Source: Telmatospirillum sp.
GTDB lineage: Bacteria > Pseudomonadota > Alphaproteobacteria > Rhodospirillales > Magnetospirillaceae
Direction: 5' to 3'
Length of the DNA: 42,038 bases
Assembly: GCA_031291415.1 (NCBI GenBank)
Contig: JARLJB010000191.1
Location: forward strand, 1-42,038
Within the stretch, counting starts at the first letter, position 1. Each line of letters opens with the position of its first letter. The position numbers and the translations under genes are program-made. The notes under the pieces were generated by a model, which saw only the letters and a list, made by a program, of their open reading frames with translations, was not told the origin of the DNA and made no database searches. Below, piece by piece: positions 217 through 39,308 of this stretch.

Positions 217-1641
217 CTACTTAAACAGCCCGCGTCCGGCGGCGATGGCAAATTCGAAGACGGGACTGGGCATTATGCCGAGAACCAGCACCACGGCGCT
301 CAAGATTCCCGCTCCGACCAGGCTGAACGCGCTGGTGTCTGGGGCCGACCGGCCTTCCGGCACCGTTTCCTCGGTATAGGCATGGCGAATCAGCGACAGG
401 TAATAATAGATGGCGAAAGCGCTGTTGACCGCCAGGGTGACGACAAGCCAGTTATAGCCATGATTCCAGGCGGCGGTGATCAGGAACAGCTTGCCGATGA
501 ACCCGACGGTCGGCGGCAGGCCGACCAGCGCGATTGCCCCGACGCCCAGCGACAAGGCGAGTGCCGGAGCGCGTTTATAGAGCCCGTTCAAGTCATCCAG
601 TTCGAGATTGCGGCCGTCCGAGGCGACGCGGCTGACCACCCAGAAGGCCAGCAAATTCATCGCCACATAGGCAAGCGCGTAAAACGCCGCCGCCGCCATT
701 CCCTCCGCCGTTCCGGCCACCAGACCGACCATGATATAGCCGGCGTGCGCCACCGACGAGAAACCGAGCATACGCTTCACGTCCTTCTGGGCCAGGGCGC
801 AAAGATTGCCGAACGTCATCGAGATGGCGCCCAACCAGGCCAGGATGGTGGTGATCTCAAGACCCGGCGTCAGGAGCGTCGACAGGCGCACCAGGATAAC
901 CACGGCGCCCAGCTTGGGCAGGGTGGCCGCGAAGGTCGCGGTTTCGTTGCTGGCGCCCTGGTAGAGCTCGGGACACCAGAAGTGGAAGGGAAACAGCGCC
1001 AGCTTGTAGAACATGCCGACCAGAAACAGCGTCAACCCGACGACCGCCATCGGTGCGTCGGCAAACTTCCAGGACTTGGCCGCGAGTTCGGCGATATAGG
1101 TGGTGTGCTGGCCGGCCAGGACGTAGGACAGGCCATAAAGGGAAAGTGCGGTGGCGACCGCGCCAAACACGATGTATTTGATGCCGGCTTCCGCGGCCCG
1201 CTTGTCCTTGGCACGCAGAGAAATGAGCGTGTAGAGGCTGTAGGAGGACAACTCCAGCGCCAGATAGATGCTGAAAAGCTCGGTGGTCGAGGACAGAAGC
1301 ATCAGGCCCCAGGTCGACAGGGCAAGGAACAGATAATAGTCGGCCCGCCGATCCTCGGCCAACGTCGGCTGACGCGACGCATTGAGCGTGGTCACGAAGA
1401 AGCAGACGGCGATGACCACTTTGAAGAACTGGGACAGTCCGTCGATCTTGTAGACATCGGCGAACATCATGCCGTGCGCGTTAAACGAGGCGACGGCGAC
1501 GACAATCCCAACGGCCGCCAGCAGCGGCACCCATTTTTCGGCGCGCGGCCCCTTGCCGTTCAGCACACTAAGAAGGAACAACGCCAGAATCAGGAAAAAC
1601 TGGAAGAGTTCCGGTACGATCAAAGCCGGGTTGAAGTTCAC
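217..1641 (-). CDS. nuoN: NADH-quinone oxidoreductase subunit N
   Basis: Antiporter-like membrane subunit of respiratory complex I. It sits next to the peripheral arm and forms one ion channel of the membrane arm. The 474-residue product is almost wholly transmembrane and carries the family core: a Glu in the LFSIYLALELSSYSLY helix, the Lys-containing FYKLALFPFHFWCPELYQGA segment (TM7) and the broken-helix region near LGFSSVAHAGYIMVGL. Length agrees with bacterial NuoN (about 475-485). The start is a GTG at 1641, chosen because GGGAGAG lies six bases upstream. It is the last gene of the operon, 12 nt after nuoM and just before a terminator. Confidence 0.95.
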   Translation of the reverse strand: MNFNPALIVPELFQFFLILALFLLSVLNGKGPRAEKWVPLLAAVGIVVAVASFNAHGMMFADVYKIDGLSQFFKVVIAVCFFVTTLNASRQPTLAEDRRADYYLFLALSTWGLMLLSSTTELFSIYLALELSSYSLYTLISLRAKDKRAAEAGIKYIVFGAVATALSLYGLSYVLAGQHTTYIAELAAKSWKFADAPMAVVGLTLFLVGMFYKLALFPFHFWCPELYQGASNETATFAATLPKLGAVVILVRLSTLLTPGLEITTILAWLGAISMTFGNLCALAQKDVKRMLGFSSVAHAGYIMVGLVAGTAEGMAAAAFYALAYVAMNLLAFWVVSRVASDGRNLELDDLNGLYKRAPALALSLGVGAIALVGLPPTVGFIGKLFLITAAWNHGYNWLVVTLAVNSAFAIYYYLSLIRHAYTEETVPEGRSAPDTSAFSLVGAGILSAVVLVLGIMPSPVFEFAIAAGRGLFK

Positions 1642-1653
1642 GACGATCTCTCC

Positions 1654-3186
1654 CTAGTTCTTCGCATTCCCAAGGCCAGTCGTCGGCACATGGGCAAGCG
1701 TTTGCGTCGTTTCTACCGTCCGAGTTGCCACCCGCCCCGAGTCGTATTGGGCAAGCAGCTTCTCGACGGAGGGCGTTATCATCTGGAAAAACACACCCGG
1801 AGCCAACCCGATGTAGAAGACCATCACGGCCGGACCCAGCAGGAAAACCCACTCGCGGGGGCAAAGGTCTTTCCAATCCTTGGCAGCCGACGGCTGGCCC
1901 CAGGCCATCTTGAGGCTGACCCGGAACATATAGGCGGTTCCCAGCAACGCGCCGGGCACCAGCAACAGACCGACCAGCAGGCTGTGCTTGAAAGCGCCAA
2001 TGAAAACCAGAATTTCACCGACGAAACCGTTGGTTCCCGGGAAACCGAGGGATGCCAGCGAGAAAAGTCCCCAGAAGAACATGTAGGCCGGCATATATTT
2101 GCCCAACCCCATGTTCTTGCTGATGTCGCGGGTGTGGCTGCGCTCATAGACGGTGCCGATCATCATGAACAGGCCGCCGGTGACGACACCGTGGTTCAGC
2201 ATCTGGAAAAGCGCGCCTTCGACGCCGCGCTGATTGAACAGAAAGATGCCCAAGGTGACAAAGCCCATGTGGCCGACCGAGGAATAGGCCACCAGCTTCT
2301 TGATGTCGCTTTGCCCAAGGGCCACCGCCCCGCCATAGAGGATCGAGGCGATCGAAATGGCGATCATCATCGGTGCGAAATACTCGCTGGCCGCTGGCGT
2401 CAGCGGCAGGCAGAACCGCAGGAAGCCATAGGTTCCCATCTTCAGCAGAATGGCTGCCAGAATGACCGACCCGGCGGCCGGCGCCTGCACATGGGCGGCC
2501 GGCAGCCAGGTATGGAATGGGAACATCGGCACCTTGATGGCGAAGGCCAGGGCCATGGCGAGGAAGCACAGGCACTGGAAGCGGAAGCTGAAGGTCTGCT
2601 GCATCAGATCGGGAATCGAGAAAGTGCCGCCGGCGATACGGAAAGCGACGATCGCCACCAGAAGCAGCGTCGAACCCGCCAACGTGTAGAGGAAGAACTT
2701 GATCGACGCGTATTTGCGCTCGTCGCCGCCCCAGACCGCGATCAGCAGATACATCGGGATCAGCATGGCTTCCCAGAACACATAGAACAGCACCAGATCC
2801 ATCGACGTGAAGACGCCGATGCAGGCCGCCGTCATGAACAGCAGGCAGATATGGAATTCCTTGATGCGCTTGCCGATGCCGGTCCACGAGCACAGCACGC
2901 AAAGCGGCAGCGTGAACAGCGTCAACCAGACCATCAGGATGCTGATGCCGTCCACCGCCAGATGATATTCGAGTCCCCACTGGGGAACCCAGGACAGCCG
3001 CTCGATGAACTGGAAATCCGCGTTGAACTGGTAGGCAGTCAGCGGCAATGCCAGCACGACCTCGATGAGGGATGCGATCAGCGTGTATTTCCGCACGATG
3101 GACTCGCCGCGGATGAAAAAGAGCCCCGCAGCCGCCAGAAGCGGAAAGAAGATCAGACTGCTGAGAACCGGATAGGCGAAATCCAA
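1654..3186 (-). CDS. nuoM: NADH-quinone oxidoreductase subunit M
   Basis: Antiporter-like membrane subunit of complex I. The product is 510 residues if it starts at the TTG at 3186, where GGAG sits eight bases upstream. An ATG at 3231 in the same frame would add 15 residues but has no visible ribosome site. Counting from the TTG, the key charged residues are present: E139 in VFWEAMLIPMYL (TM5), K218 in FAIKVPMFPFHTWLP (TM7) and K249 in ILLKMGTYGFLRF (TM8). The length matches the family (about 500). A 121-nt gap containing a hairpin separates it from the upstream NuoL-like gene, unlike the other very tight junctions of this operon. Confidence 0.93.
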   Translation of the reverse strand: MDFAYPVLSSLIFFPLLAAAGLFFIRGESIVRKYTLIASLIEVVLALPLTAYQFNADFQFIERLSWVPQWGLEYHLAVDGISILMVWLTLFTLPLCVLCSWTGIGKRIKEFHICLLFMTAACIGVFTSMDLVLFYVFWEAMLIPMYLLIAVWGGDERKYASIKFFLYTLAGSTLLLVAIVAFRIAGGTFSIPDLMQQTFSFRFQCLCFLAMALAFAIKVPMFPFHTWLPAAHVQAPAAGSVILAAILLKMGTYGFLRFCLPLTPAASEYFAPMMIAISIASILYGGAVALGQSDIKKLVAYSSVGHMGFVTLGIFLFNQRGVEGALFQMLNHGVVTGGLFMMIGTVYERSHTRDISKNMGLGKYMPAYMFFWGLFSLASLGFPGTNGFVGEILVFIGAFKHSLLVGLLLVPGALLGTAYMFRVSLKMAWGQPSAAKDWKDLCPREWVFLLGPAVMVFYIGLAPGVFFQMITPSVEKLLAQYDSGRVATRTVETTQTLAHVPTTGLGNAKN

Positions 3187-3268
3187 CGCAGTTACTCCGT
3201 TACGTTTCCCGACCCAGTCTCCGATCGGCATTTGCCAAGAACGAACACTGGACTTGAATGTGACACCT

Positions 3269-3297
3269 GCGCCTCCCGCTTCGGCGGGCTCAGGCGC
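3269..3297 (-). other. Intra-operon hairpin before nuoM
   Basis: GCGCCT (3269-3274) pairs with AGGCGC (3292-3297), and CCCGC (3275-3279) with GCGGG (3284-3288), around a four-base loop with a three-base bulge. There is no U-tract on either strand, so it is not a typical terminator. It occupies the only sizeable gap inside the nuo operon, between the NuoL-like gene and nuoM. It could stabilise or process the mRNA; that role is inference. Confidence 0.6.
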
Positions 3298-3307
3298 CGC
3301 TCGGGTT

Positions 3308-5095
3308 CTAACCCAGGTACCAGACCAATCCGAATACGGCCAGCCCAAGCACAGTGGCCATCGCCAGATAGTCCTGAATATTGCCGTTCTGCACTTTCGC
3401 CCCGATACGGCCCACACCCAGGACCGCGGCGGCAGAACCATCGACCACCCCGTCGATCCCCTGCCTGTCGAACCAGGAACAACCCGAGGCGACAAGCATC
3501 AGGCCGCGCAGGCCACCGACGCGGTACGCCTCGGTCCAGCGGTCATCGAGCCAGGCGAACGGGTGGCACAGCAAAGCCAGAACCGCCCGACCGATCAACC
3601 GGTAGAAATAGTCGAAATCGAGATTGATGCCCGACCGCACGGTGATGATGCCGCGCAGGAGGACCACCGCCAGTCCCGAAAAGCCCAACAACAAAAGAGC
3701 CTGCAGGACATGCCACTGAGTCCAGGGGACATAGGGCTCTTCGACAGGGAAGGGCAACGAGCGATAGAGCATGTCGGGGTAGAGCCCCTGCGCGATGCAG
3801 AGAACGGCGGCCAACGCCATGCCGGCATACATGTTCCACGGAATGGGTTTCATTGCGGCATCGTTCCAGCTTCCCTCCGGCTTGCGCCGCCAGAAGACGA
3901 AATAGGGCAACCGGATGCCGACAGCGATGAACGTTCCCGCCGTGGCAACTTCGAGCGCCAAGGCCTGCCAGGTATGATGGGCCTCGGCCGTGCCGGCGAT
4001 GGTCATCGTCTTGGTGACGAAGCCGTTGAACAGCGGCATGCCCGAGATCGACATGGCGCCCACCGTGAAGAGGATGGTCACCCAGGGCAGACGTTCGGCC
4101 AGACCGCCCAGTTTCTCCAGCTTGTCGGTGCCGACCGCGTAGATCAGGCAGCCGACGCTCATGAACAGCAGGCTCTTGTAGAGGATGTGGGCATAGGCGT
4201 GCGCCGCCGTGCCATCGAGCGTGAGCGCGGTGCCGACACCGATGCCGACAACCATGTATCCCACCTGGGAAATGATGTCGTAGGCCAGAACACGCCGGGC
4301 GCTATTGGCAATGATGGCATAGAACACGCCGTAAACCGCCATCACCGCTCCAGCCACCGCCAGCACTTCCCAGCCGGCGAAGCCACGCGCCAGGACATAG
4401 ACCGCCGTCTTGGTGGTAAAGGCGCACATGAACACCGCCCCGGATGGCGTGGCGCGCGGATAGGCATCCGGCAGCCAGGCATGCAACGGCACGACTGCGG
4501 CGTTGACACAGAAACCGATGAGAATCAGCCAGTCATAGAGGGCGGCATCGGCCGACGGAATGTGGTCGAACGCAAAACTTCCGGTGGCCTTGTAGCGCAG
4601 CAGCAAACCACCCAGCAGGAACAGTCCGCCGACGGTGTGAAACAGGAAGTAGCGGAACCCCGCCAGCGTCGATTCCCGTGTCCGGTTCAGGAAGACCAGG
4701 AAGGTCGAGCCGATGCTCATCAGTTCCCAGAAGACGAACAGGCTGATGTAATCGCCCGAGAACACGCAGCCGAAGCTGCCCGCCACATAGAGCGATGCCG
4801 CGATATGCTGGCCTTTGTCCTCGACGTTCAGGGCGTAGATCATGCCGATCAGCGACATGACGGCGAAGACCTGCGCGAAGATCAGCGACAGCGAGTCGAC
4901 GCGTCCCAGGGTCACCTGTTCGCCAAGGTAGGGCAGCACGGCATAGACGCCCGGCGCCATGGAAAAGACGCTCCAAAGGGCGACGATCGGCGGGACGAGC
5001 AGCAGCCACTTCCACTGCCGGCCAGGCAGGAACGGCAGAATCAGAGCCAGCAGAAGAAAGCCCACAGAGGGGTGAATGAAATTAGAGATCACCAT
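3308..5095 (-). CDS. MrpD/NuoL-type antiporter-like subunit, hybrid
   Basis: Membrane subunit of the Nuo/Mrp antiporter family, 595 residues, in the position nuoL normally takes. The core is closest to MrpD-type proteins (LHAWLPDAYPRATPSGAVF, FTTKTAVYVLARG). The last 100 residues (FDRQGIDGVVDG, GNIQDYLAMATVLGLAVFG) resemble the end of NuoL that carries the lateral helix and anchors it. Visible key residues are E124 (FWELMS, TM5), K229 (TM8), H303 and K307 (HILYKSLLF). The TM7 lysine is replaced by asparagine (N198, CVNAAVVPLHAW). The start overlaps the 85-aa gene by 14 nt. It probably forms the distal ion-pumping module of this complex I; this is inference. Databases may label it Na+/H+ antiporter subunit D. 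Confidence 0.88.
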   Translation of the reverse strand: MVISNFIHPSVGFLLLALILPFLPGRQWKWLLLVPPIVALWSVFSMAPGVYAVLPYLGEQVTLGRVDSLSLIFAQVFAVMSLIGMIYALNVEDKGQHIAASLYVAGSFGCVFSGDYISLFVFWELMSIGSTFLVFLNRTRESTLAGFRYFLFHTVGGLFLLGGLLLRYKATGSFAFDHIPSADAALYDWLILIGFCVNAAVVPLHAWLPDAYPRATPSGAVFMCAFTTKTAVYVLARGFAGWEVLAVAGAVMAVYGVFYAIIANSARRVLAYDIISQVGYMVVGIGVGTALTLDGTAAHAYAHILYKSLLFMSVGCLIYAVGTDKLEKLGGLAERLPWVTILFTVGAMSISGMPLFNGFVTKTMTIAGTAEAHHTWQALALEVATAGTFIAVGIRLPYFVFWRRKPEGSWNDAAMKPIPWNMYAGMALAAVLCIAQGLYPDMLYRSLPFPVEEPYVPWTQWHVLQALLLLGFSGLAVVLLRGIITVRSGINLDFDYFYRLIGRAVLALLCHPFAWLDDRWTEAYRVGGLRGLMLVASGCSWFDRQGIDGVVDGSAAAVLGVGRIGAKVQNGNIQDYLAMATVLGLAVFGLVWYLG

Positions 5096-5339
5096 AGAAA
5101 TCCTCTTTGCGGGCGATGAGAGGACGGACGATCTTTTCCACGATCAGCACGACGGCCGCGCCGACGATCAAGCCGAATCCGGCGAAGAACCCTGGATAGC
5201 GGTCTGCCCCGAAATGTGCCTCGTCCGGCCCGATGACCAGATTGAGGCCGAGGAGGACGACCAGGAGGACGAAAAAGAGATTTCGCCAGAGCCTGTGCTG
5301 GCCTCTGAGCCGTTCGAACACTGCGCCAAGACTGCTCAT
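5082..5339 (-). CDS. Small two-helix membrane protein of the nuo operon
   Basis: An 85-residue protein with two hydrophobic helices (about residues 21-37 and 50-67) joined by a short polar loop (GPDEAHFGADRYPG), and charged ends (KIVRPLIARKEDFYGDL). I do not recognise the family. It sits between the two MrpD-type genes, 9 nt after the first and overlapping the start of the second by 14 nt, so it is very likely co-translated and part of the same complex. It is not NuoK/MrpC-like, since it has only two helices and no conserved membrane Glu of that family. Its role could be to bridge the extra antiporter-like subunits, but nothing in the sequence proves this. Confidence 0.8.
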   Translation of the reverse strand: MSSLGAVFERLRGQHRLWRNLFFVLLVVLLGLNLVIGPDEAHFGADRYPGFFAGFGLIVGAAVVLIVEKIVRPLIARKEDFYGDL

Positions 5340-5348
5340 AGCCGTTTC

Positions 5349-6836
5349 CTAGTAATTCCCGAAGACACGAATGAAGTCCTGAAACAACTGCGGATAGAAC
5401 CCGAGGACCACCGACATCAGCGCCGTGAAGCAAAGCGGCACCACCATGGTCAACGGGGCCTCCTTGTAATTTTCGATGGCGATCACCGGCTCCTTGAAAA
5501 AGGCGCGATAAAAGATCGGCACGAAATAACCGGCGTTAAGCGCCGTCGAGGCCAGCAAAGCCACCAGAAGGACGACCTGACCGGCCTGCAGAGTGCCGTT
5601 GACCAGATACCATTTGGAGACGAAACCGCAGACCGGCGGCATGCCGATCATCGACAGCGAGGCCAAACCGAAGGCGCCGAAGGTCCACGGCATCTTGCGG
5701 CCCAAGCCGTTCATCAGGCTGATCTTTTTCTGATGTGTCATCACATAGATGGCACCGGCGCCGAAGAACAGCGTGATCTTGGCGAAGGCGTGATTGGCGA
5801 TATGAAGAAGGCCGCCTTGCACCGCCATCGGGGTCAGCAAGGAAACGCCGATGATGACGTAGGAAAGCTGGCTCACCGTCGAATAGGCCAAGCGGGCCTT
5901 GATGTCGTCCTTGGTCAGTGCGATGAGCGAGGCGACCACGATGGTGAAGGCAGCCAGATAAGCGGTGGGCAACCCGAGGCCCAGGCTGTTCATCGTCTCG
6001 ACACCGAAGCCCGACAGAATGATGCGGCTCATCGAGAAGACGCCCGCCTTGACCACCGCCACCGCATGCAGCAAGGCCGACACCGGCGTCGGCGCAACCA
6101 TCGCCGAGGGCAACCAGTTGTGGAACGGCATCAAAGCCGCCTTGGCCAGACCGCAGATGTAAAGGACATAGGTCAGCCGCACCAGATTGGGATGCTCCGC
6201 CACGACGTCGGCCGGGAAAATGCCTGACACGACAGTGCCGAGATTCATCTCGAGGGTGCCGCACAACACATAGGTCAGCACCATGGCCGGCAACAGGAAG
6301 AGCTTGGAAGTCCCCATGAGGTAAACCAGGTACTTGCGGGCGCCGGCGAACCCTTCCGCGTCCTGGTGATGGGCGACCAGGGGGTAGGTGAAGACGGTGA
6401 TGACCTCGTAGAAGAGGTACAGCGTGAAGACATTGGCGGCCAGCGCCACGCCGACCGCGCCGAAGATGGCGATGGCGAAGCAGAAATAGTACCGCGTCTG
6501 GGCGTGTTCCTTGAGCCCGCGCATGTAGCCGACGTTGTAGCTGGTGGCCATGCCCCAGAGGAGCGGGGCGATCAGCCCGAAGATGATGCCGAGACCGTCC
6601 AGGCCGAAGGTCACGTTGATGCCCGGCAGGATGGTGAACAGCGTATAGGTATAGACGTGTCCTGAGAGGATGCCCGGCACATAGGAGAGCATCGCAAGGA
6701 AAGTCAGGGCCGCAGCGATGAACGACACCGCCTCGCGGCGGTTCTCGTTGTGCCGGTTGAGCCAGATGGCGAATGGCGCCACCAGGGTCACGGCAAGCGG
6801 AAGAAGAAGTCTGGCGCTTTCGATGGTCGCGGGCAT
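5349..6836 (-). CDS. MrpD-type antiporter-like subunit of complex I
   Basis: A 495-residue polytopic membrane protein of the proton-conducting antiporter-like family (PF00361). All the charged residues expected in a working channel are present: E144 (LFYEVITVFTYPL, TM5), K232 (GLAKAALMPFHNWLPSAM, TM7), K263 (VVKAGVFSM, TM8), and H349 with K353 (HAFAKITLFFGAG, TM12 region). It lacks the long NuoL-type C-terminal tail. It lies 11 nt after nuoK, where nuoL begins in ordinary operons. It therefore adds a fourth antiporter-like module beside the NuoL-like, NuoM and NuoN subunits. Databases often name such proteins monovalent cation/H+ antiporter subunit D. Confidence 0.9.
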   Translation of the reverse strand: MPATIESARLLLPLAVTLVAPFAIWLNRHNENRREAVSFIAAALTFLAMLSYVPGILSGHVYTYTLFTILPGINVTFGLDGLGIIFGLIAPLLWGMATSYNVGYMRGLKEHAQTRYYFCFAIAIFGAVGVALAANVFTLYLFYEVITVFTYPLVAHHQDAEGFAGARKYLVYLMGTSKLFLLPAMVLTYVLCGTLEMNLGTVVSGIFPADVVAEHPNLVRLTYVLYICGLAKAALMPFHNWLPSAMVAPTPVSALLHAVAVVKAGVFSMSRIILSGFGVETMNSLGLGLPTAYLAAFTIVVASLIALTKDDIKARLAYSTVSQLSYVIIGVSLLTPMAVQGGLLHIANHAFAKITLFFGAGAIYVMTHQKKISLMNGLGRKMPWTFGAFGLASLSMIGMPPVCGFVSKWYLVNGTLQAGQVVLLVALLASTALNAGYFVPIFYRAFFKEPVIAIENYKEAPLTMVVPLCFTALMSVVLGFYPQLFQDFIRVFGNY

Positions 6837-6847
6837 GGCGCTGTTCT

Positions 6848-7156
6848 TTATTCTTTCAGGGTGGAAAGGGCGCTGAGTTCGGTGGTGCCGAAACGGCGCG
6901 AGACCACCACGATAATGGCCAGAACCAGGGTCGCCTCGGCGGCCGCCAGGCCCATCACCAGAAGCGTTCCCAATTGACCGAGCATGGCGTTCGCCTCTGT
7001 CAGTTGGGCGGCGGCGACGATCGATAGTCCGGCGCCGTTCAGCATGAGTTCCACCGAAATCAACATGCCGACCAGGGTCCGGCGCTGAACGATGCCGTAA
7101 AGGCCGATGGCCAAAAGCATGAGAGCCACCAGTTGGTAAAGTGTGAGGGCGCTCAT
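6848..7156 (-). CDS. nuoK: NADH-quinone oxidoreductase subunit K
   Basis: Small three-helix membrane subunit of complex I, homologous to MrpC. The product is 102 residues, the usual length. It contains the conserved ISVELMLNGAGLSIV helix with its membrane glutamate and the AAAEATLVLAIIVVV helix with a second one, both on the proton path in known structures. The start at 7156 is chosen over a GTG seven codons upstream because the ATG overlaps the nuoJ stop as ATGA and has GGAAAAGAA just before it, and because the family begins at this point. Confidence 0.95.
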   Translation of the reverse strand: MSALTLYQLVALMLLAIGLYGIVQRRTLVGMLISVELMLNGAGLSIVAAAQLTEANAMLGQLGTLLVMGLAAAEATLVLAIIVVVSRRFGTTELSALSTLKE

Positions 7157-7662
7157 TTCTTTTCCTTTCGCTCCCACGTCAGGAGAACCGCTCCCGACAT
7201 GGCGACCAGCAGCACCAGCGAAATCAGCTCGAAGTTCAGCGAGTACTGTTCAAGAAGACCGCTGCCCAGGGCTGGCAACGGAACCTCCTCCGGCAGGATC
7301 TTCGAGATCCCGGGATGCTTCACGAGAACAAGGGCGAGGCCGCCGGCCGGCAGCAATCCGGCCGCCAGGGCGTAGAGGCGCCGCTTCGCCGTAATGGGAG
7401 CGGCCTCCTCGCCCTGGCCGTCGGCCCGGGTCAGCATGACGGCGAAGAAGACGAGGACGCAGACGGCACCGACATAGATGAGCATCTGCATGAAGGCCAG
7501 GAACGGCGTGTTCAACAGCAGATACATGCCCGACACGCCGAAGAAGGTCACGATGAGCCCGACCAGTGAGCGGACCAGACTTTTGGCCGATACCGCCACC
7601 AGTCCACCGCCCAGAATAATCACGGCATAGATCGTGAACGCGAGTTTCGCCAGAATTTCCAT
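7153..7662 (-). CDS. nuoJ: NADH-quinone oxidoreductase subunit J
   Basis: Membrane subunit of complex I, 169 residues with about five helices, ending in the soluble tail LLTWERKEKK. The hallmark third helix with its glycine-rich, pi-bulge-like region is seen in LIYVGAVCVLVFFAVMLT. The family's LVGLIVTFFGVSGMYLLLN segment precedes it. It starts 2 nt after nuoI and its stop overlaps nuoK by four bases, so J and K are translationally coupled. Confidence 0.94.
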   Translation of the reverse strand: MEILAKLAFTIYAVIILGGGLVAVSAKSLVRSLVGLIVTFFGVSGMYLLLNTPFLAFMQMLIYVGAVCVLVFFAVMLTRADGQGEEAAPITAKRRLYALAAGLLPAGGLALVLVKHPGISKILPEEVPLPALGSGLLEQYSLNFELISLVLLVAMSGAVLLTWERKEKK

Positions 7663-7664
7663 TT

Positions 7665-8225
7665 TCAGTTCTCTTCGGCCTTGGGAGCCTCGGGCGTCGC
7701 CGGCCTCAATGCCTCAGGAAAGGGCACCAGCAGGTCGTGCATGAAGTCGCTGCGGCTTGTTCCGACGGAATAGAGGTCGTGGGAAAATTCGATGCAATGG
7801 GTCGGACAGGCTTCGACACACACGCCGCACAGGCTGCACAGCGAAAAATCATTGATCCAGATGACCGGTTCACGCGGGGCCGATGGCCGTTCGACCTCTT
7901 CGCCCCGCGCCTCGGCCTCCTGGAAGGCCTTTTCCTGCTCCGGCGTGACCGTCGGCACCGGCGCCTTGACGACCGTGATGCAGCTCGACGGGCAGGCCGT
8001 GACACAAATCATACAGGCCGTGCATTTGGGCTTGGCCTGATTTCTGGGGTGCGCCACCAGCATGATGGGGCCGCGATAGCTGGCGTTGACCTCAGGGTCA
8101 ACCTCCTGACGCGGATAGTGGACCGTCACCTGACTGCGGGTGAAATTCCGGCCGGTGATCTGGAGACCGACGACAAGGCTCCAGAGGTCGGCGACGGGCT
8201 GAAGGATTTTCTTGATCGCGCTCAT
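7665..8225 (-). CDS. nuoI: NADH-quinone oxidoreductase subunit I, 2x[4Fe-4S]
   Basis: Peripheral-arm iron-sulfur subunit that passes electrons to the N2 cluster on NuoB. The product is 186 residues. Two CxxCxxCxxxCP motifs ligate clusters N6a and N6b: C68-C71-C74-C78 and C130-C133-C136-C140. The N-terminal amphipathic stretch (ILQPVADLWSLVVGLQITGRNF) matches the membrane-contacting helices of the family. The linker between the two motifs (52 residues from C78 to C130) is longer than the roughly 30-36 usual in NuoI and contains an acidic insert (EKAFQEAEARGEEVERP). The first motif (CTACMICVTACP) also differs from the CIACKLCEAVCP of the standard alphaproteobacterial enzyme, which hints at a separate origin of this operon. 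Confidence 0.94.
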   Translation of the reverse strand: MSAIKKILQPVADLWSLVVGLQITGRNFTRSQVTVHYPRQEVDPEVNASYRGPIMLVAHPRNQAKPKCTACMICVTACPSSCITVVKAPVPTVTPEQEKAFQEAEARGEEVERPSAPREPVIWINDFSLCSLCGVCVEACPTHCIEFSHDLYSVGTSRSDFMHDLLVPFPEALRPATPEAPKAEEN

Positions 8226-8244
8226 GACGTTTCCGAAGCCTTTC

Positions 8245-9219
8245 CTAGAAAACCTTCATGAGGAAAACCGTAGCCAGAAGATTGAGCGTTGCCAGAGGCA
8301 AAAGCCACTTCCAGTTGAGGTTGAGGAGTTGATCGAACCGAACGCGCGGATAGGTCCAGCGAACCCAGATGATCAGCCCCAGAAGGGCGTAGACCTTGAT
8401 CAGGAACCACCACACTCCGTCGATACCCGGACCTTTCCAACCACCGAGGAAAAGTGCCGCGCAAACACCGGAAACCACCACCATGTTGGCGTATTCGGCC
8501 ATGAAAAACAGACCGAAACCCATGCCGGAATATTCCGTGTGAAAACCGGCCGTCAGTTCGGATTCCGCTTCCGGCAAATCGAAAGGCGCACGGTTCGTCT
8601 CGGCAAACGAGCTGACCAGGAAGATCAGGAAGGCCAGCGGCTGGCAGACGAAATTCCATTGCCACGGCCAGGACCCTTGCGCTTCAACGATCGTCGAGAG
8701 ATTGAGGCTGCCATATTGGAAGGCGATGCAGAGCACACACAGCAGCAACGGAATCTCATAGGCGACCGACTGCGACACGGCGCGCGCCGCCCCCAGCAGG
8801 CCAAATTTGTTGTTGGACGACCAACCGGCCAACAGCGTCGCCAACACGTTGATTCCGGCGAAGGCCAGGATCAGCAGCAGGCCGAGATTGACCTCCTGGA
8901 CGGTCAGCACCGGCCCGAATGGCATCGGCACGAACAACAGCAGTACCGGCAGGAAGGACAGAATGGGGGCCAGCCAGTAGAGAATCGGATCGGCGCCGAT
9001 CGGCGTCAGGAGCTGCTTGCCCATGAGCTTGCCGGCGTCGGCCAGCGGCTGGAGGATGCCGTGCGGTCCCACCTCGTAAGGACCGGGACGCCGCTGAATA
9101 TGGCCGGCGCCTTTGCGTTCGGCGTAGACCAGGACCAGGACATTGATGGCGACGAAGGCCATCACGGCAACCATGCCGACGACAATACGAATGAGTTCCG
9201 GAGGGATGATAGAAAGCAT
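8245..9219 (-). CDS. nuoH: NADH-quinone oxidoreductase subunit H
   Basis: Membrane subunit at the junction of the two arms, forming much of the quinone chamber. The product is 324 residues with about eight helices. Family signatures are clear: YAERKGAGHIQRRPGPYEVG near the N-terminus, LAGWSSNNKFGLLGAARAVS, and the acidic quinone-site loop FAETNRAPFDLPEAESELTA, followed by FHTEYSGM. The start lies 5 nt after nuoD. In a standard operon nuoE, nuoF and nuoG would stand between these two genes, and none is present here. Confidence 0.95.
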   Translation of the reverse strand: MLSIIPPELIRIVVGMVAVMAFVAINVLVLVYAERKGAGHIQRRPGPYEVGPHGILQPLADAGKLMGKQLLTPIGADPILYWLAPILSFLPVLLLFVPMPFGPVLTVQEVNLGLLLILAFAGINVLATLLAGWSSNNKFGLLGAARAVSQSVAYEIPLLLCVLCIAFQYGSLNLSTIVEAQGSWPWQWNFVCQPLAFLIFLVSSFAETNRAPFDLPEAESELTAGFHTEYSGMGFGLFFMAEYANMVVVSGVCAALFLGGWKGPGIDGVWWFLIKVYALLGLIIWVRWTYPRVRFDQLLNLNWKWLLPLATLNLLATVFLMKVF

Positions 9220-9224
9220 GCGAT

Positions 9225-10388
9225 CTACCTGTCGATCTCGGGTATGACCAGATCCAGGCTGCCCAGGATGGCCAGAGCGTCAGCCAGCAGGGTCCCACGC
9301 GCCGCTTCGGCAAAAAGGCTTAAGTTACTGAAGCATGGGGACCGTAGCTTGATCTTGTAGGGGAACTTGCCGCCGTTGCTGACCAGATGGACGCCGGCCT
9401 TGCCGCGCGCCGCTTCGAACGCGAAGTAAGATTCACCTTTGGGAACAGCCCACGTCACCTTGGGCGCCTTGGCCATCATGACCTTGCCTTCGGGAAGCGA
9501 GGCCAAGGCCTGCTCGATGATGTTGAGGCTTTGTTCCATCTCATCCATGCGCACCAGATAACGGGCCATGCTGTCGCCGGCCTGCTGAACCGCCACCTTC
9601 CAGTCGAAACGGCTGTAGATGGACAAATTCTCGGTCTTGCGCACGTCGTAGTCGATCCCCGATCCCCGCGCCACCGGGCCGGAACCGCCATAGCGGCGGC
9701 AGAGATCGGCGTCGAAGACACCGACGCCCTCAAGACGGTTGCGCAGGATGGTGTTGCCGGTGACCAGATCGCGGTACATCGGCAACCGGGCGCGCATATG
9801 GGGAATAGCCTCTTTGCAGGCGGCGACGAATTTGTCGTTGATGTCGGTGCAAACACCGCCCACCCGGAACGAGCTGTGGGTCAGCCGCGACCCGGTCGCC
9901 ATCTGCAGAATGTCGAGCAGACGCTCGCGATCGTCGAAGGCGTACATGATCGGGGTGATGGCGCCAAGATCCAGCGTGAAGGCGCCCCACCACAGCAGAT
10001 GCGAGGTGATGCGGTTGAGCTCGGTCGTGATGACGCGGATGTACTCGGCCCGCTCCGGCACCTCGAAACCAGCCAGCCGCTCGACCGCACCGACCAGGGC
10101 CCAGTTCCAGCCCAGGGCGTGGCCGTAATCGACCCGGCCCATGTTCGGCAGATACTGATAGAGGGACCGTCCCTCGGCCATCTTCTCGTGCATGCGGTGG
10201 AGGTAGCCGATGACCGGCTCCGCCCGGATGACATATTCGCCATCCAGCTCCACGATGACCCGAAGGACGCCGTGTGTGGCCGGGTGTTGCGGCCCGAGGT
10301 TCAGAATAAGCGTATCCTCGCGGGCTCCCTTCTGGAAATTCCGCGAGTAAAAATCGCCCTCGGTCAGACCCATTTCTTCGTAACGCAT
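9225..10388 (-). CDS. nuoD: NADH-quinone oxidoreductase subunit D
   Basis: Peripheral-arm 49-kDa subunit that forms the quinone-binding cleft with NuoB. It is 387 residues if started at the ATG at 10388; the frame is open further upstream but that part would overlap nuoC. Conserved features are LNLGPQHPATHGVLR near the N-terminus (its His takes part in quinone binding in known structures), YLHRMHEKMAEG, and the C-terminal LGSLDLVIPEIDR that closes almost all NuoD proteins. It is a stand-alone gene, not fused to nuoC. No strong ribosome site precedes the chosen start, so translational coupling to nuoC (stop 28 nt upstream) is likely. Confidence 0.94.
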   Translation of the reverse strand: MRYEEMGLTEGDFYSRNFQKGAREDTLILNLGPQHPATHGVLRVIVELDGEYVIRAEPVIGYLHRMHEKMAEGRSLYQYLPNMGRVDYGHALGWNWALVGAVERLAGFEVPERAEYIRVITTELNRITSHLLWWGAFTLDLGAITPIMYAFDDRERLLDILQMATGSRLTHSSFRVGGVCTDINDKFVAACKEAIPHMRARLPMYRDLVTGNTILRNRLEGVGVFDADLCRRYGGSGPVARGSGIDYDVRKTENLSIYSRFDWKVAVQQAGDSMARYLVRMDEMEQSLNIIEQALASLPEGKVMMAKAPKVTWAVPKGESYFAFEAARGKAGVHLVSNGGKFPYKIKLRSPCFSNLSLFAEAARGTLLADALAILGSLDLVIPEIDR

Positions 10389-10416
10389 GGTCGTTGCCGT
10401 TGATCCTTTTGGCCGA

Positions 10417-10947
10417 TCAGGCTCCGGTTGCCCCACCGCCTTCGGCGGCTTTGGGAGTAAGAAGGTCAAACCCCGGTGCGGACCGCAGCACCTCGCCGAC
10501 CGGCAGCATATCGATCAGAGAAACGCGGGCGCCATCCTCTTTCCGCAGGGGATGAAACTTCATTTCGGGAGCCAGCAGCAGGGGGATGGGATTGGGATTG
10601 CCGTTGAAAACGATGCCGTAAAAATCGGTGGTTTCACGCTCGTGCCATTCCGCCCCCTGGAAAACCGAGGCGATGGAGGCGATCTCCGGCGTCTCGTGGG
10701 GGATCAGAACGCGAAGCGCGAGCCGTCCCTGCCGATCCATGTGGTCGAAGTGGTAGACCAGCAGATAGCCTTCCCTGGCATCGATGGCCGTGATGTCCTC
10801 GAGAGCGTACTCGGCCTGGTAGAGAAGCCGAACTGCCGGCAAGAGGTCAGCGGACGACAGGAAAACCGACCAGGCAAGCCCGGTTCTGGCCGGATCGCAT
10901 TTGGCCAGACATTGGACTGGAAGCGGGGAAAACAACGTATCGATCAT
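10417..10947 (-). CDS. nuoC: NADH-quinone oxidoreductase subunit C
   Basis: Peripheral-arm 30-kDa subunit, 176 residues from the ATG at 10947, which overlaps the nuoB stop as ATGA. The family signature is present as [21 protein letters not shown], followed by the [16 protein letters not shown] segment where the canonical protein has a basic LL.DW.GHPLRKD motif. The DW/GHP part is altered here ([10 protein letters not shown]), so this is a divergent NuoC, like NuoI in the same operon. It supports assembly of the peripheral arm and has no cofactor. Confidence 0.92.
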
Positions 10948-11492
10948 TCCACGGCCCCTCCGGCTTTCGGCCACCAGCGGCGGCCGGTCAGCTTCTCCTG
11001 GATCTGGAACAATCCCTCGAGCAGCGCCTCGGGACGCGGCGGACAGCCCGGCACATAGACGTCGACCGGAATCAACTGATCGACACCCTCGACGATCCCA
11101 TACTGGTTCTCGAACTTGAAGGGACCACCGGAAATGGCGCAGTTGCCGAGAGCCAAAACGAAACGCGGCGCCGGCATCTGCTCATAAAGGCGAACAACCG
11201 CCGGGGCGATCTTCTTGGTCACCGTCCCGGCAACGATCAAGAGGTCGGACTGACGCGGCGACGGCCGAAAAACCTCGGCACCGAAACGCGAGATATCGAA
11301 ACGGGCCATACTGGTCGACATCATTTCGATGGCGCAGCAGGCCAGGCCGAAGGTCATCGGCCACAGCGACATGGCGCGGCAGACATCGAGAACGTCCTGG
11401 ACGGCCTTCACCCCGATGACGGGGGGAACGATGCGAACACCGCCGTCGTCCGGAATCTCCGGCGTAACTATAGTCGGATTTTGCGCGGCCAT
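10944..11492 (-). CDS. nuoB: NADH-quinone oxidoreductase subunit B
   Basis: Peripheral-arm subunit that carries cluster N2, the direct electron donor to quinone. The product is 182 residues. The four ligands are visible: the tandem C52-C53 in [11 protein letters not shown]118 in GNCAISGG and C150 in [13 protein letters not shown]. The start at 11492 has AAGGTG seven bases upstream and lies 25 nt inside the end of nuoA. The stop overlaps nuoC by four bases. Confidence 0.95.
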
Positions 11493-11848
11493 GTGAACAC
11501 ACCTTTCGCCCAGAAATAGACGATGGACAACCCGAGGAACGACAGGAAGAAAAGCACCTCGAAGAACGCCGTCCAGCCGACGGTCAGACGGTATTGGACG
11601 GCGACCGGGAAGAGGTAGAGAACGTCGACGTCGAAAGCCAGAAAAATCAACGCATAGACGTAGTAGCTGATGCCGAACTTGGCTCTGGCGTTGCCCTGCG
11701 GCTCTATGCCGCACTCGTAGGACATACCAATGTCGCCACCGCGCGCCCGGGGGGACAGCAGGGCGCCAATCAGCAACGGGCCGGTGGCAAACAGAGCGCC
11801 CAGCACCAAAAACAATATGATGGCAAGATGCAGCCAGCTAAAGACCAT
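11468..11848 (-). CDS. nuoA: NADH-quinone oxidoreductase subunit A
   Basis: Small three-helix membrane subunit of complex I, 126 residues, the first gene of the operon. Signature motifs are [20 protein letters not shown] (the loop whose Cys lies at the quinone chamber in known structures) and [19 protein letters not shown] with its conserved acidic residues. AGAGGA lies about ten bases before the ATG. Upstream is a 541-bp intergenic region that should hold the operon promoter. Confidence 0.95.
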
Positions 11849-19520: not shown

Positions 19521-22500
19521 ATGACATCTCTCATCCGCCGTGTCTTGCGACACATGTCATCGACGCCATCGTGGAACAGCCGAAATCCGATCAGGGAAGA
19601 GCTTTTCGGTATCGAGCGGCTGGAAGAACATGCGCGAAGCCTTGCCGCCGCACAGTTGGTCAAGCCAAAACCCGCCAGGGGCCACCCCCTGGCGGGGCGG
19701 CTGGCCGACAACGGTGCCGTTCTGCTCGACGCCTACCGCTCCATCGCCAAGGCGATCGACGAGGGTGGGGTCATAACGCCCGCCGCGGAATGGCTGGTCG
19801 ACAATTACCACCTCGTCGAAAGACACATCCGGGAGATTCGCTCGGATCTTCCCGCCGGCTATTACCGGCAGCTTCCCAAACTGGCCGCCGGCCCATTCGC
19901 CGGATACCCGCGAGTCTTCGGCATTGCCTGGGCATTCATCGCCCATACGGATAGCCGCTTCGACAAGGAAATGCTGATTCGCTACATGCGGGCCTATCAG
20001 GAAGTCCAACCGCTGACGATCGGCGAATTGTGGGCAGTGTCGATAACCTTGCGGATCGTTCTCGTCGAGAACCTGCGACGGCTCGTCACACAGATCCTCG
20101 AAGATCGCACGGCGCGCTCGCAGGCCGATGGCCTTGCCGATCGCCTGCTGGGGGTGGGCGGACACGCGCCGGAACCGGTCTCGACCGTGCTCGTCCGGCA
20201 TGAACATGGTCCGTTGGCCGATGCGTTCGCCGTCCAGCTCGTGCTGAGACTCCGCGACCAGGACCCAAGGATTACCCCGGCGCTCACCTGGCTCGACCGC
20301 CGCCTGTCGGCGCAGAACATGACCGCTGACGCCGTTGTACGCGATGTCCATCGCAGCCAGGGCGCATCGAACGTCACCGTCCGCAACATCATCACCAGCA
20401 TGCGGCTGATTTCCGATGTCGATTGGACGAAATTGTTCGAACGCATCAGTCTCGTCGACGAAGTCCTCGCCGAGGGCAGCATTTTTCGCGACATGGATTT
20501 TCCGACGCGCAATCTTTATCGCAGTGCCATCGAGAATTTGGCGCGCGGTGCCAATCGAACCGAAATCGACGTCGCACGCAATGCCGTGCTCGCCGCACAA
20601 CGTGCCCGCGCTACGGATCTTGCGGCGAAGAATACCGACAAAGCCGAACTCGAAGGTGATCCCGGTTACCACCTTCTCGCCGGCGGACGGCCCGCCTTCG
20701 AAACAACGATCGGTTTTCGCCTGCCGCTGCACAGCTGGGCGACCCGACTGACCCGTGCTTTCGGCATCCATGGCTATGGCTCGGCCATCACCATCGTCGC
20801 GGCAGCCCTGCTGGCTTTGCCGCTGGTGGCCCTCGCCTCGCTGGAACAAGGCACATTATGGTTGTGCGCGCTGGGCATTCTCGGTGCGATTCCCGCCATC
20901 GATGCGGCTGTGGCGCTGGTCAACCGCGCCGTGACCTACAGTTTCGGCGCGACGCCCCTTCCGGCACTCGACCTTCTTCATGGCGTTCCGGAGCATCTGC
21001 GGACGCTCGTCGCCGTCCCTACCCTGCTGACATCTCGTGCAGCCATCGCGGAACAAATCGAACGCCTGGAAATCCACCACCTGGCGAGCCCGGGCGGTGA
21101 CCTCCATTTTGCTATGCTCTCTGATTGGACCGATGCCGAGACGGAAACCGTCGCCGGTGACCAGCCTCTTCTCGCACTGGCCGCCGCAGGGATCGCCAAC
21201 CTCAATCAGCGCTACGGCCAGACCCGGCCGGACACCGACGGTGGCAGCGCCCGTTTCCTGCTGCTGCATCGACGGCGTGTCTGGAACGAGAGCGAGGGGC
21301 GGTGGATCGGTTGGGAACGCAAGCGCGGCAAGCTGCACGAGTTGAACCGTCTGCTGCGCGGCGCGACCGATACCACCTTCGTCGCTGTCGCGGGAACGCC
21401 GCCCCATCCGCCGGCCGACGTCCGATATGTCGTGACCCTCGACGCCGATACGCGATTGCCGCGCGACACGGTCCGCCGATTGATCGGCAAAATGGCCCAT
21501 CCGCTGAACAGACCGCGCTTCGACGACATCGCGGGCCGTGTCGTCGAGGGCTATGCGATCTTGCAACCGCGCGTCACCCCCTCGCTGCCGGTCGGCCAGG
21601 AGGGATCGCTCTTCCAACGGACTTTTTCCAGTCTGAGCGGCATCGATCCCTACGCCTCGGCAGTATCCGACGTTTATCAGGACCTGTCCGGCGAGGGGTC
21701 CTATGCCGGCAAGGGCATTTATGACGTCGATGCCTTCGAGCGGTCGTTGGCCGGCCGGGTTCCCGACTCGACACTCTTGAGCCACGATCTCTTCGAAGGC
21801 GTCTTCGCCCGCGCCGGTCTCGCCTCCGATGTCGAAGTCGTTGAGGAATATCCGGCACGCTACGACGTCGGCGCGCTTCGTCACCATCGCTGGGCCCGCG
21901 GCGACTGGCAACTTCTGCCTTGGATCCTGGGCATCAGGCAGCGCTCCACCAAAGGCAAGCCAAACGCCACACGCGACACCAAATCCCGGGCATGGGCCAC
22001 CATTCCGGCGATCGGCCTTTGGAAAATGCGCGACAATCTTCGCCGCACGCTCTCCGCGCCGATGGCGGTTCTCGCTCTGCTTGCCGGATGGACAAGGCCG
22101 TTCGACGCAGCCCTGGTGTGGACCCTTTTCGTCCTTTCGACGATCGTCGTGCCGACCCTGATTCCCGTTGTCGCCGCCATCCGTCCCGGCCGCCCCGGCA
22201 TCACCATCGCCAGCCACCTGCGCGCCCTTGGCGGCGATTTCCGCTCGGCCCTCACGCAATCGGCCTTCCTTGTCATCTTCCTGGCCCATCAGGCCTGGCT
22301 GATGGGCGACGCGATCACCCGCACCTTGTGGCGTCTGGCCGTCAGCCGCCGCCACCTTCTCGAATGGGTGACGGCCGCCCAGACGACGATCGGCCGCAGC
22401 CCCGATCTCAAGGGATCCTATCGCCGGATGTCCGGCGCACTCGGCATCGGCGTCGCGACGCTCGTGCTGATCGGCATCTCGGAACTGCTGGGATCGCCGG

Positions 22501-25500
22501 GACATGGGACCTGGCCCCTGGGGTCGTGGCTCCTGGCCACCCCTTTCGTGGCGCTTTGGGCTGCCTCGCCGGCGGTCGCGCGTTGGGTCAGCCTTTCCCC
22601 GTCGGACTCGCAACAGCTCCAGATGTCGGATAGCGACACGCATCGCCTGCGGCTGGTCGCCCGCCGCACATGGCGGTTCTTCGAAAGTTTCGTCACTCCG
22701 ACCGACCATCTGCTGCCGCCGGACAATTTCCAGGACAACCCGATACCGGTTCTTGCCCACCGGACCTCGCCCACCAATCTCGGCCTTTATCTCCTGTCGG
22801 TGGTCTCTGCCCGTGACTTTGGCTGGATCGGAACCGCCGAAGCTGTCGATCGGTTGGAAGGGACGCTGGCCACCATGAGCGGATTGGCCCGCTTTCGCGG
22901 TCACTTTTACAATTGGTACGACACCAAGGATTTGCGCCCACTCGATCCGAAATATGTTTCTTCCGTCGACAGCGGCAATCTGGCCGGACATCTCATCGCG
23001 CTCGCCAACGCCTGCCAGGACTGGAAACAGCGCCCGCCAAGCGCATCGACCCGCCTGGCGGGCATCGCCGATGCGATCGATCTGACCCGCGAGGAGGCGG
23101 CCGGCCTGCATGACGGGCGGCTGACGCAAACCGTAACCTGGCGGCAGTTCGACGACACGCTCACTACGTTTGCCGGTGGCGTGCGTCAGACCTCCGACAC
23201 CGATCTACCGCTCCGGCTCACCGAGTTGGTCGATGACGCCGAGAATATTGCCGACATCGCGCAGGCGCTGGCCGTCGAACGCGGCGACGCAAGCGGCGTT
23301 GACATGCAGTTCTGGGCGCAGGCCAGCCTGAATGCGATCCGCTCGCACAACCGCGATCTCAAACAGAACACGGCTGAGGCGGCAACCGTCGCGGCGCGCT
23401 TGACCATCCTCGAAGACACCGCCCGCTCCATGGCGTTGGCCATGGAGTTTGGCTTCCTGTTCGACCAGGATCGCCATCTCCTTTCCATCGGCTATCTGGT
23501 GCCGGAAGGAACGCTCGACACCAATTGTTACGATCTCCTGGCGTCGGAAGCCCGGTTGGCCAGTTTCGTTGCCATCGCCAAGGGCGACATTCCGGCCCGT
23601 CATTGGTTCCGATTGGGCCGTACCGTCACGCCGGTGGCGCGGGACGCCGCGCTGATTTCCTGGTCGGGCTCGATGTTCGAATATCTGATGCCGTCGCTCA
23701 TCATGCGCGAACCGGCCGGAAGCCTGCTCGAACGGACGAACCGGCTGATTGTGCACGCCCAGATCGACTATGCCGCGACACGCCACATTCCCTGGGGTAT
23801 CTCGGAATCCGCCTACAATGCCCGCGATCTCGAATTCACCTATCAATATTCGAACTTCGGCGTTCCCGGCCTCGGGCTGAAACGCGGCCTCGGAGAAAAC
23901 CTCGTCATCGCCCCCTACGCGACGGCTTTGGCGTCGATGATCGATCCGCGAGCCGCCGCTGCCAATCTGGCGCGACTCGAAAAAGTCGGCGCACGAGGCC
24001 GTTATGGCTTTTACGAAGCCTTGGATTACACACCGATCCGCCTGCCCATCGGCGACAGCATCGCCGTTGTCCACGCCTTCATGGCGCATCATCAGGGAAT
24101 GAGCATCGTCGCCATCGCCGACGCCTTGCTCGATGGCGCGATGCGAACACGATTCCACGCAGAGCCCATCGTGCAGGCGACCGAACTGCTCTTGCAGGAA
24201 CGCCCGCCGCGCGATGTCGCGGTGGCGCATCCTTGGGCGACCGAGGTGCCGTCGACGGCATTGGCGCGCGACATCGAACCGGCCGGCAGCCGAACTTTCA
24301 CCTCCGCCGGTCAGATGACGCCGCCCACGCATCTGCTCTCGAACGGTCGATTCGCGACGATGCTGACCGCCGCCGGGTCCGGGTACAGCCGCTGGGGCGA
24401 CATTGCCCTCACCCGTTGGCGCGAGGATGCCACCTGCGACGACTTCGGGTCCTACATCTTCCTCAGGGACGTCCGCAATGGCGAAATCTGGTCGGCGGGT
24501 TTCCAGCCGAGCGGCGCCGAACCGGACGAATACCAGGTCACATTCCGCGAGGATCGCGCCGAGTTCATAAGGCGAGACGGCGCTCTGACGACGACATTGG
24601 ACGTACTGGTCTCGGCCGAGGGCGATGCCGAGGTTCGTCGCGTCTCGATTTCCAATACCGGCAATCGCATCCGGGAACTCGAAATCACCTCCTACGCCGA
24701 GCTGGTTTTGGCGCCACAGGCCACCGATGCCGCCCATCCGGCCTTTTCCAAACTGTTTGTCGAAACGGAATATCTCGCCGACGTCGGGGCCATTCTGGCG
24801 ACAAGACGACGGCGGACACCTGTCGAACCGGAAATTTGGGCCGCGCATCTGGCGGTCGTCGACGGTGACGCGGTCGGACGGCCGGAAATCGAAACCGACC
24901 GGGCCCGCTTTCTCGGCCGCGGCCACGATATCCGGACACCGATGGCCGTAATCGACGGACGGTCTTTGTCGAACACCGTCGGCACGGTGCTCGATCCGAT
25001 TTTCGCACTTCGTCGCCGCGTGCGCGTGGCACCGGGAGCAGTCGTTCGCGTTGCCTATTGGACCTTGGCGGCCTCGACACGTGAAGCGCTTCTCGACAGT
25101 GTCGACAAACACCGGGACTCGACAGCCTTCGGACGGGCGACAACCCTCGCCTGGACGCAGGCCCAGGTCCAGCTTCATCATCTTGGCATCACGGCGGGCG
25201 AAGCCGCTCTCTTCCAGAATCTCGCCGGGCATGTGGTCCATGCCGCATCGGTTCTCAGGCCCGCCTCGGATACTATTCGACGAGGCGGCGGCGCCCAGTC
25301 CGGATTGTGGGCGCAAGGGTTGTCGGGAGATCTGCCGATCGTCCTGTTGCGCATCGCCGATTCTGAATACATCGACATCGCCCATCAGTTGCTGCAGGCG
25401 CACGAATATTGGCGAATGAAACAGCTCGCCGTCGATCTCGTCATCCTCAACGAACGTCAGTCTTCCTATGTTCAAGATCTTCAAATAGCGATCGAAACAC

Positions 25501-32590: not shown

Positions 32591-32631
32591 GGCACGTCTC
32601 CCGATGCTTGTTCGTTGATTTTTTCAGCTTG

Positions 32632-33558: not shown

Positions 33559-33559
33559 G

Positions 33560-35611: not shown

Positions 35612-35615
35612 GGCA

Positions 35616-36413: not shown

Positions 36414-36420
36414 CGTCGCC

Positions 36421-38019: not shown

Positions 38020-38041
38020 CGTTTTTCTCCGGTCTGCCCCG

Positions 38042-39214: not shown

Positions 39215-39278
39215 CAAAGCCTCCCTGGTGGTCCAACCACTCGGATGTCCGGCGGCATCTTCAATTGATTGGCCGCTC

Positions 39279-39308
39279 ATTATAGAAACGAGCATACGTT
39301 TTTATAAT
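39279..39308. promoter_or_regulatory. Operator palindrome with two divergent -10 boxes
   Basis: ATTATAGAAACG (39279-39290) and CGTTTTTATAAT (39297-39308) form a 12-bp inverted repeat with one mismatch around AGCATA. Each arm ends in a -10-like TATAAT pointing outward: one for liuA on the minus strand, one for the TetR gene on the plus strand. A dimer bound here would block both promoters. It lies 65 bp before liuA and 90 bp before the TetR gene. Binding by that TetR protein is inference. Confidence 0.7.

Follow-up and report, generated by a model that had tools for sequence, protein, structure and literature searches.

The window analysed here is a 42,038-nucleotide stretch of Telmatospirillum sp. 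(NCBI GenBank assembly GCA_031291415.1, contig JARLJB010000191.1; contig C398 of a 7.14 Mb assembly in 412 contigs), one end of which is occupied by a complex I (nuo) operon. Thirteen genes run along the minus strand from 11848 down to 217—nuoABCDHIJK, an MrpD-type gene (MrpD1), a gene for an 85-aa protein, a second MrpD-type gene (MrpD2), nuoM and nuoN—confirming the gene order read in an earlier note made from the DNA sequence. Key residues of the antiporter-like subunits are given as a set of four, from transmembrane helices (TM) 5, 7, 8 and 12.

nuoA, 11468..11848, minus strand: 126 aa
nuoB, 10944..11492, minus strand: 182 aa; all four cluster N2 cysteines kept
nuoC, 10417..10974, minus strand: 185 aa
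nuoD, 9225..10469, minus strand: 414 aa from TTG; retains the quinone His but has Asn in place of the quinone Tyr
nuoH, 8245..9219, minus strand: 324 aa; 5 nt downstream of nuoD
nuoI, 7665..8225, minus strand: 186 aa; a long linker separates its two CxxCxxCxxxC motifs
nuoJ, 7153..7662, minus strand: 169 aa
nuoK, 6848..7177, minus strand: 109 aa; both conserved membrane glutamates kept
MrpD1, 5349..6836, minus strand: 495 aa; antiporter-like, full E/K/K/K set, no lateral helix
85-aa protein, 5082..5339, minus strand: two hydrophobic stretches (by eye)
MrpD2, 3308..5095, minus strand: 595 aa; MrpD-type core, TM7 Lys replaced by Asn, NuoL-like lateral helix and end helix
nuoM, 1654..3231, minus strand: about 525 aa from ATG 3231; full E/K/K/E set
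nuoN, 217..1641, minus strand: 474 aa; full E/K/K/K set

A compact operon without nuoEFG

Neighbouring genes overlap or lie no more than 20 nt apart, the exception being 76 nt between MrpD2 and nuoM, and the contig ends 216 bases beyond nuoN. The longest nuoD frame begins with TTG, a downstream ATG being the likelier start; the simplest start for nuoM is the ATG at 3231. Only 5 nt separate the end of nuoD (9225) from the start of nuoH (9219), so the NADH module (nuoEFG) is absent from the operon, as the earlier note had concluded.

Family models support that note's count of four antiporter-like subunits, of which two resemble MrpD. MrpD1 reaches 795 bits, where the cut-off is 663 (PRK08375.1-1), and MrpD2 703 bits, where it is 564 (PRK12668); NuoM lies above the TIGR01972 cut-off and NuoN slightly below that of TIGR01770 (327.6 versus 332.6). 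NuoB, NuoD, NuoH and NuoK each exceed at least one curated NCBIfam cut-off (a curated NuoD model in the case of NuoD). NuoA, NuoC, NuoI and NuoJ match nuo models, all under the curated NCBIfam cut-offs of the models listed, and are divergent as judged by these scores; NuoC as a protein, and NuoI by its clusters, pass Pfam cut-offs. The 85-aa protein has no NCBIfam or Pfam match at E ≤ 0.001; its gene is flanked by MrpD1 and MrpD2 in relatives too, as well as at two rhizobial loci.

MrpD2 had been described as a NuoL/MrpD hybrid. It belongs to the MrpD group, siding with MrpD by the TM8 Lys and lacking the NuoL/MrpA histidine of helix VIII, and has a C-terminal arm that is NuoL-like. An AlphaFold2 model (30 sequences, mean predicted local distance difference test (pLDDT) score 84) places one helix at 495–568 and an end helix at 573–594, and the best PDB matches of this model in Foldseek are MrpA, MrpD, NdhF and NuoL chains. 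By alignment the arm is ~13 aa longer than that of the genome's own NuoL; MrpD2 relatives in Mrp loci have a C-terminal arm that is shorter and different from that of the operon MrpD2. Together these features favour, short of proof, a placement of MrpD2 in NuoL's position, with MrpD1 beyond it.

Recurrence in other genomes and fixed residue changes

A scan of named genomes returned 531 MrpD2 relatives, the best 80 loci of which were kept, so that the sample leans to close relatives. Two of these loci are Telmatospirillum (L070, T. siberiense 26-4b1; L085, Telmatospirillum sp.) and the rest are by title mostly Desulfovibrio-type or other Deltaproteobacteria/Desulfobacterota; four (L081, L119, L123 and L145) are titled only Proteobacteria or bacterium. 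All 11 large genes are visible in 57 of the 80. The nuoD–nuoH interval is free of any recognised nuo gene in all 67 loci showing both genes, and MrpD1 and MrpD2 are seen together in 75, accompanied in 70 by the small gene. As the identical set and order recur in other genomes, the gene set is not a product of chance. The three other large Telmatospirillum assemblies all carry the 13 genes in the same order; in a fifth assembly of the genus (0.9 Mb) nothing exceeds the PRK12668 cut-off.

Among 99 genomes sampled from the Desulfovibrio sp. A2 family, 62 have matches at E ≤ 1e-150, with 46 to 75% identity, counted by sequence match alone. Of 55 genomes in the family to which the window belongs, 8 exceed the PRK12668 cut-off: four Telmatospirillum and four others. 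Three of these four others were inspected, and there MrpD1 and MrpD2 relatives are joined by a third antiporter-like gene, with no recognised redox subunit. One of the three, L034, carries MnhB, MrpF and MnhG domains and is a true Mrp locus; L035, L036 and L161 show the combination as well, and MrpD2 of such loci likewise has Asn at TM7. A draw of 385 genomes from the class gave 69 matches at E ≤ 1e-100, none above 49% identity besides the own genome. The four next best comprise two rhizobial-type loci with EFG (L158 and L160), one with an Mrp-type look (L161) and one (L159) that ends at a contig edge with no EFG in its visible part.

Residues were tallied over the window plus those loci with a long enough match (MrpD2, 79 of 80 loci; MrpD1, 73; NuoM, 74; NuoN, 63; NuoD, 65; NuoB, 60; NuoK, 73). 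In MrpD2, Asn stands in place of the TM7 Lys in 80/80 sequences, and TM5 Glu, TM8 Lys and TM12 Lys are kept in 80/80. Every MrpD1 (74), NuoM (75) and NuoN (64) retains all four key residues. The TM7 Asn is also found in MrpD2 of R. lentis and of three Mrp-like-locus relatives. A motif search over 25 fetched loci, which missed some antiporter-like open reading frames (ORFs), gave 50 matches; after dropping two that were not antiporter motifs (the first match of L035 9780, and L033 1802), TM7 is Lys in 39/39 sequences outside the MrpD2 group and Asn in 9/9 inside it. PMC4938563 calls the TM7 lysine universally conserved and cites K229A as a severe blow to complex I activity, although the complementation growth test of the same paper showed almost no effect of lysine mutants. 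In one Mrp system antiport was abolished by MrpD-K219A and by MrpA-K223A (PMC5703873).

The second fixed change is in NuoD, where the quinone His is kept in 66/66 sequences and the quinone Tyr is replaced by Asn in 65/66. Within the set, Tyr stands at this position solely in the NuoD of L139; R. lentis has Leu, and the standard NuoD of the own genome has Tyr. A pairing of EFG-like genes with the NuoD Tyr was considered and rejected: L118, a locus with such genes, has Asn, and the single Tyr is that of L139. In Thermus thermophilus the tyrosine in question bonds quinone and is termed essential (PMC7434922). The cluster N2 cysteines of NuoB (61/61) and the NuoK glutamates (74/74) are invariant and, together with the retained NuoD His, make the coupling core look active. 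Neither the TM7 nor the NuoD Asn change was met in the literature, though no search was aimed at either.

Host genome, origin and related complexes

The genome holds a second, standard set, of the kind that the earlier note had proposed searching for. A NuoF over cut-off and a standard NuoD lie on contig C318, in frames consistent with a full, ordered nuoA–N series that includes E, F and G. That note had also allowed that nuoEFG located elsewhere might serve the present subunits as the sole complex I; nuoEFG does exist, but inside this separate complete set, whose NuoD and NuoC are 36% and 30% identical to those of the window. Three further NuoD homologues, on C212, C42 and C47, belong to clusters that resemble energy-converting hydrogenases or relatives. 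At the C212 locus (L009), homologues of NuoH, B, C and D adjoin a 1309-aa frame that contains two antiporter-like stretches, and by gene content it is a predicted further energy-converting complex.

A tree of seven joined subunits (FastTree, 53 sequences, 2698 columns) was built from the 51 of 81 members (window plus loci) having all seven and two rhizobial sequences, and was rooted on those two sequences only. The window pairs with L085 (local support 0.98), then with L070 (1.0) and then with a Desulfovibrio metagenome-assembled genome (MAG), L071 (1.0); this group is nested among Nitratidesulfovibrio and termite-gut-type Deltaproteobacteria in a clade supported at 0.985, within the Desulfobacterota set. 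The operon thus looks acquired from Desulfovibrio-like sulfate reducers, and the simplest reading of the tree would be horizontal transfer into Telmatospirillum before the species split. There is no sign of recent arrival in base composition (G+C 60.8% in the operon, 61.9% in the remaining window). A contaminating contig was rejected as an explanation, the T. siberiense operon (L070) lying on a 392-kb contig. Co-transfer of dissimilatory sulfite reductase was likewise rejected: no dsrA exceeds cut-off in the five genus assemblies, weak matches occurring in four (best 3.6e-13).

The remainder of the window has other content. A 2890-aa ORF at 19521–28193 (plus strand) carries glycosyl hydrolase 94 and glucoamylase domains and is cyclic beta-glucan synthase-like; opposite it lie five long minus-strand ORFs without a family match. 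Genes for an acyl-CoA ligase, HMG-CoA lyase, biotin carboxylase, carboxyl transferase and acyl-CoA dehydrogenase at 30896–39295 (minus strand) form a cluster likely to serve leucine/isovalerate degradation, and a gamma-glutamyltranspeptidase is encoded at 39991–41763 (plus strand).

The four antiporter-like subunits of the operon have a precedent in the rhizobial green complex I (Degli Esposti and Martinez-Romero 2016), in which two MrpD-like subunits replace NuoL (PMC9040806) and the same membrane arm is present. It shares with the operon the JK-MrpD1-small-MrpD2-M-N run and the MrpD2 TM7 Asn; two rhizobial plasmid loci, however, hold nuoEFG after nuoD, with nuoH and nuoI apart. Identities to R. 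lentis are 52% for MrpD1, 46% for MrpD2 and 40% for NuoD, which has Leu where the operon has Asn. Since the two rhizobial loci have EFG and the operon does not, we class the operon as a variant of green complex I and not as a plain member.

Complexes without an NADH module are also known. The nuo operon of Desulfovibrio gigas, for which the paper is our only source, lacks it as the present operon does (PMC4287179, whose available text makes no mention of four antiporter-like subunits); among the Desulfobacterota loci of the present scan, the gene set is that of Telmatospirillum. The 11-subunit complex I and cyanobacterial/plastid NDH-1 likewise dispense with EFG, and ferredoxin is thought to be their donor. 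The Desulfitobacterium operon is nuoABCDHIJKLMN, with NuoL among three antiporter-like subunits, compared with four here (PMC11238625). Complex_I_3 of Manganitrophaceae resembles the operon in having extra antiporter-like subunits that include two MrpD-like ones; Complex_I_3 and the 2M complex I of Nitrospira have an extra NuoM, whereas the operon has no second NuoM (PMC9040806). The lateral helix insert of the extra-NuoM complexes is ~26 aa, compared with ~13 aa here in a helix modelled at modest confidence (PMC9040806). A 2025 survey counts 415 species without EF or EFG (PMC12361115). We found no description of four antiporter-like subunits in an EFG-less complex in the part of the literature searched, mostly titles and abstracts, on MrpD-like complex I subunits, EFG-less nuo operons and extra antiporter-like subunits.

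Electron donor, ion pathway and competing readings

We consider it probable that the operon encodes an additional complex I of specialised type, which has a green-type membrane arm, acts as a ferredoxin (or flavodoxin):quinone oxidoreductase and derives from Desulfovibrio-like bacteria. The thirteen products would form one complex, with ion and stoichiometry putative. As NuoEFG is missing, electrons would first meet the clusters in NuoI and NuoB. Reduced ferredoxin, for instance from pyruvate:ferredoxin oxidoreductase (PFOR), would dock at the position of the NADH module and pass electrons through these clusters to a quinone held by the NuoD His, in a site with Asn and not Tyr. Powered by the redox energy, ions would move via the E-channel, NuoN and NuoM and onward along MrpD2 to MrpD1. 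MrpD2, which would occupy the NuoL position, carries the predicted lateral helix but lacks NuoL's TM7 lysine; MrpD1, with its full residue set and probably at the outer tip, is therefore the likely last working pump.

The earlier note had suggested a donor other than NADH, which is likely, its identity being our reading of indirect evidence. NuoF was searched in 15 carrier genomes, mostly drafts. Four (those of L075, L078, L095 and L138) have no match at E ≤ 0.001, and as these four agree, the complex must in those genomes at least do without an NADH module; the genome of L071 has only a partial match (7e-8). The four best PDB matches of NuoD are NdhH of cyanobacterial/plastid NDH-1. NDH-1 takes electrons from ferredoxin, with NdhS as its ferredoxin-docking subunit. 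PFOR is above cut-off in the own genome, where RnfC is not, and in the three other large assemblies of the genus. Two EFG-less enzymes already have ferredoxin as their proposed donor, the nuo complex of D. gigas (PMC4287179) and the 11-subunit one from Desulfitobacterium (PMC11238625). The NuoI linker was rejected as a general ferredoxin site, being long in the Desulfovibrio-type sequences shown and short in many others.

Several results weigh against this reading. NdhS, present in NDH-1, was searched for and is absent. Clustering of flanking ORFs (at least 80 aa, stop to stop) from the window and the 80 loci, many with short flanks, revealed no conserved donor gene beside the operon; the widest cluster reaches 12 loci, on which ground a conserved neighbour was rejected as donor. 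With neither a neighbouring donor gene nor NdhS, the donor is one we infer; a common donor gene is likewise missing for the 11-subunit enzymes (PMC11238625). A possible rival user of ferredoxin is suggested by a partial RnfC-like match in the own genome (1.9e-61, under cut-off); RnfC is above cut-off in G051 and G053, not in the own genome or G052. Loss of the quinone Tyr in 65/66 NuoD sequences makes quinone less certain as the acceptor. In the membrane arm, the lateral helix of MrpD2 reaches a pLDDT of just about 51–73, and the position of MrpD1 is one we infer. NuoE/F/G-like genes do occur in 4 of the 80 loci, and strong NuoF-family matches in 10 of the 15 carrier genomes (four over cut-off, two of them Telmatospirillum) make an NADH partner possible there. 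In one Desulfobacterales MAG (L118), NuoE-, NuoF- and NuoG-like genes lie between nuoC and nuoD, possibly a regained NADH module.

Among the alternatives, the best surviving, if unlikely, is that all four antiporter-like subunits and the E-channel each move one ion, giving five per two electrons, with the larger ferredoxin–quinone drop supplying the energy. Invariance of TM5 Glu, TM8 Lys and TM12 Lys/Glu in all four subunits tallied speaks for it, as do the suggestion of a fifth proton where a fourth subunit is present (PMC9040806) and the small effect of the TM7 lysine of NuoL and MrpA in one growth test (PMC4938563); the loss of that lysine from MrpD2 in 80/80 sequences, set against its presence in all 39 antiporter-like sequences matched outside the group, speaks against it. 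The claim in the earlier note that each subunit moves an ion, with more ions per electron pair, is thus not supported as worded: only three of the four subunits have the full residue set.

Operation mainly in reverse, an ion-motive force driving quinol electrons to ferredoxin for nitrogen or CO2 fixation, we regard as somewhat less likely still. It was proposed for the five-pump complex of Manganitrophaceae (PMC9040806), and green complex I is present in rhizobia; set against this, PFOR makes reduced ferredoxin available from pyruvate in the own genome, and the locus holds no hint of reverse flow. That the NADH module on C318 also serves the second complex, making it an NADH dehydrogenase with a spare arm, seems very improbable. 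NuoF in the same genome, the retention of EFG at the two rhizobial loci, the strong matches in 10 carriers and the L118 genes would fit such sharing; the four carriers with no NuoF match, and the low identity of NuoD and NuoC to their standard counterparts, would not. Least credible of all is a separate Mrp-like cation/H+ antiporter of MrpD1, the 85-aa protein and MrpD2, merely co-transcribed with nuo, an option the earlier note had raised: relatives of both proteins occur in the true Mrp locus L034 of the same family, which L035, L036 and L161 resemble by MrpD content alone, but an Mrp antiporter needs MrpE and MrpB, neither of which was found in the own genome, leaving no ordinary Mrp antiporter to join, while the operon has no other nuoL, the MrpD2 arm is NuoL-like and not of the Mrp type, and nuo linkage is kept in the loci examined.

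Returning to a ferredoxin:quinone oxidoreductase, we tentatively raise a further possibility, short of probable, that this is a widespread natural complex I with rebuilt coupling, in which the quinone Tyr is gone, the subunit in NuoL's place lacks its central lysine and the last pumping step has passed to MrpD1. Debate persists on which complex I subunits are responsible for proton movement and in what way quinone chemistry powers it, and here a common natural version with a fourth antiporter-like subunit does without two residues whose importance is known from mutants. Of the whole finding, the two fixed residue changes hold the greatest interest, and they are testable. If the coupling is indeed rebuilt, the family would constitute a natural experiment on the proton exit site and on the need for the quinone tyrosine in coupling.

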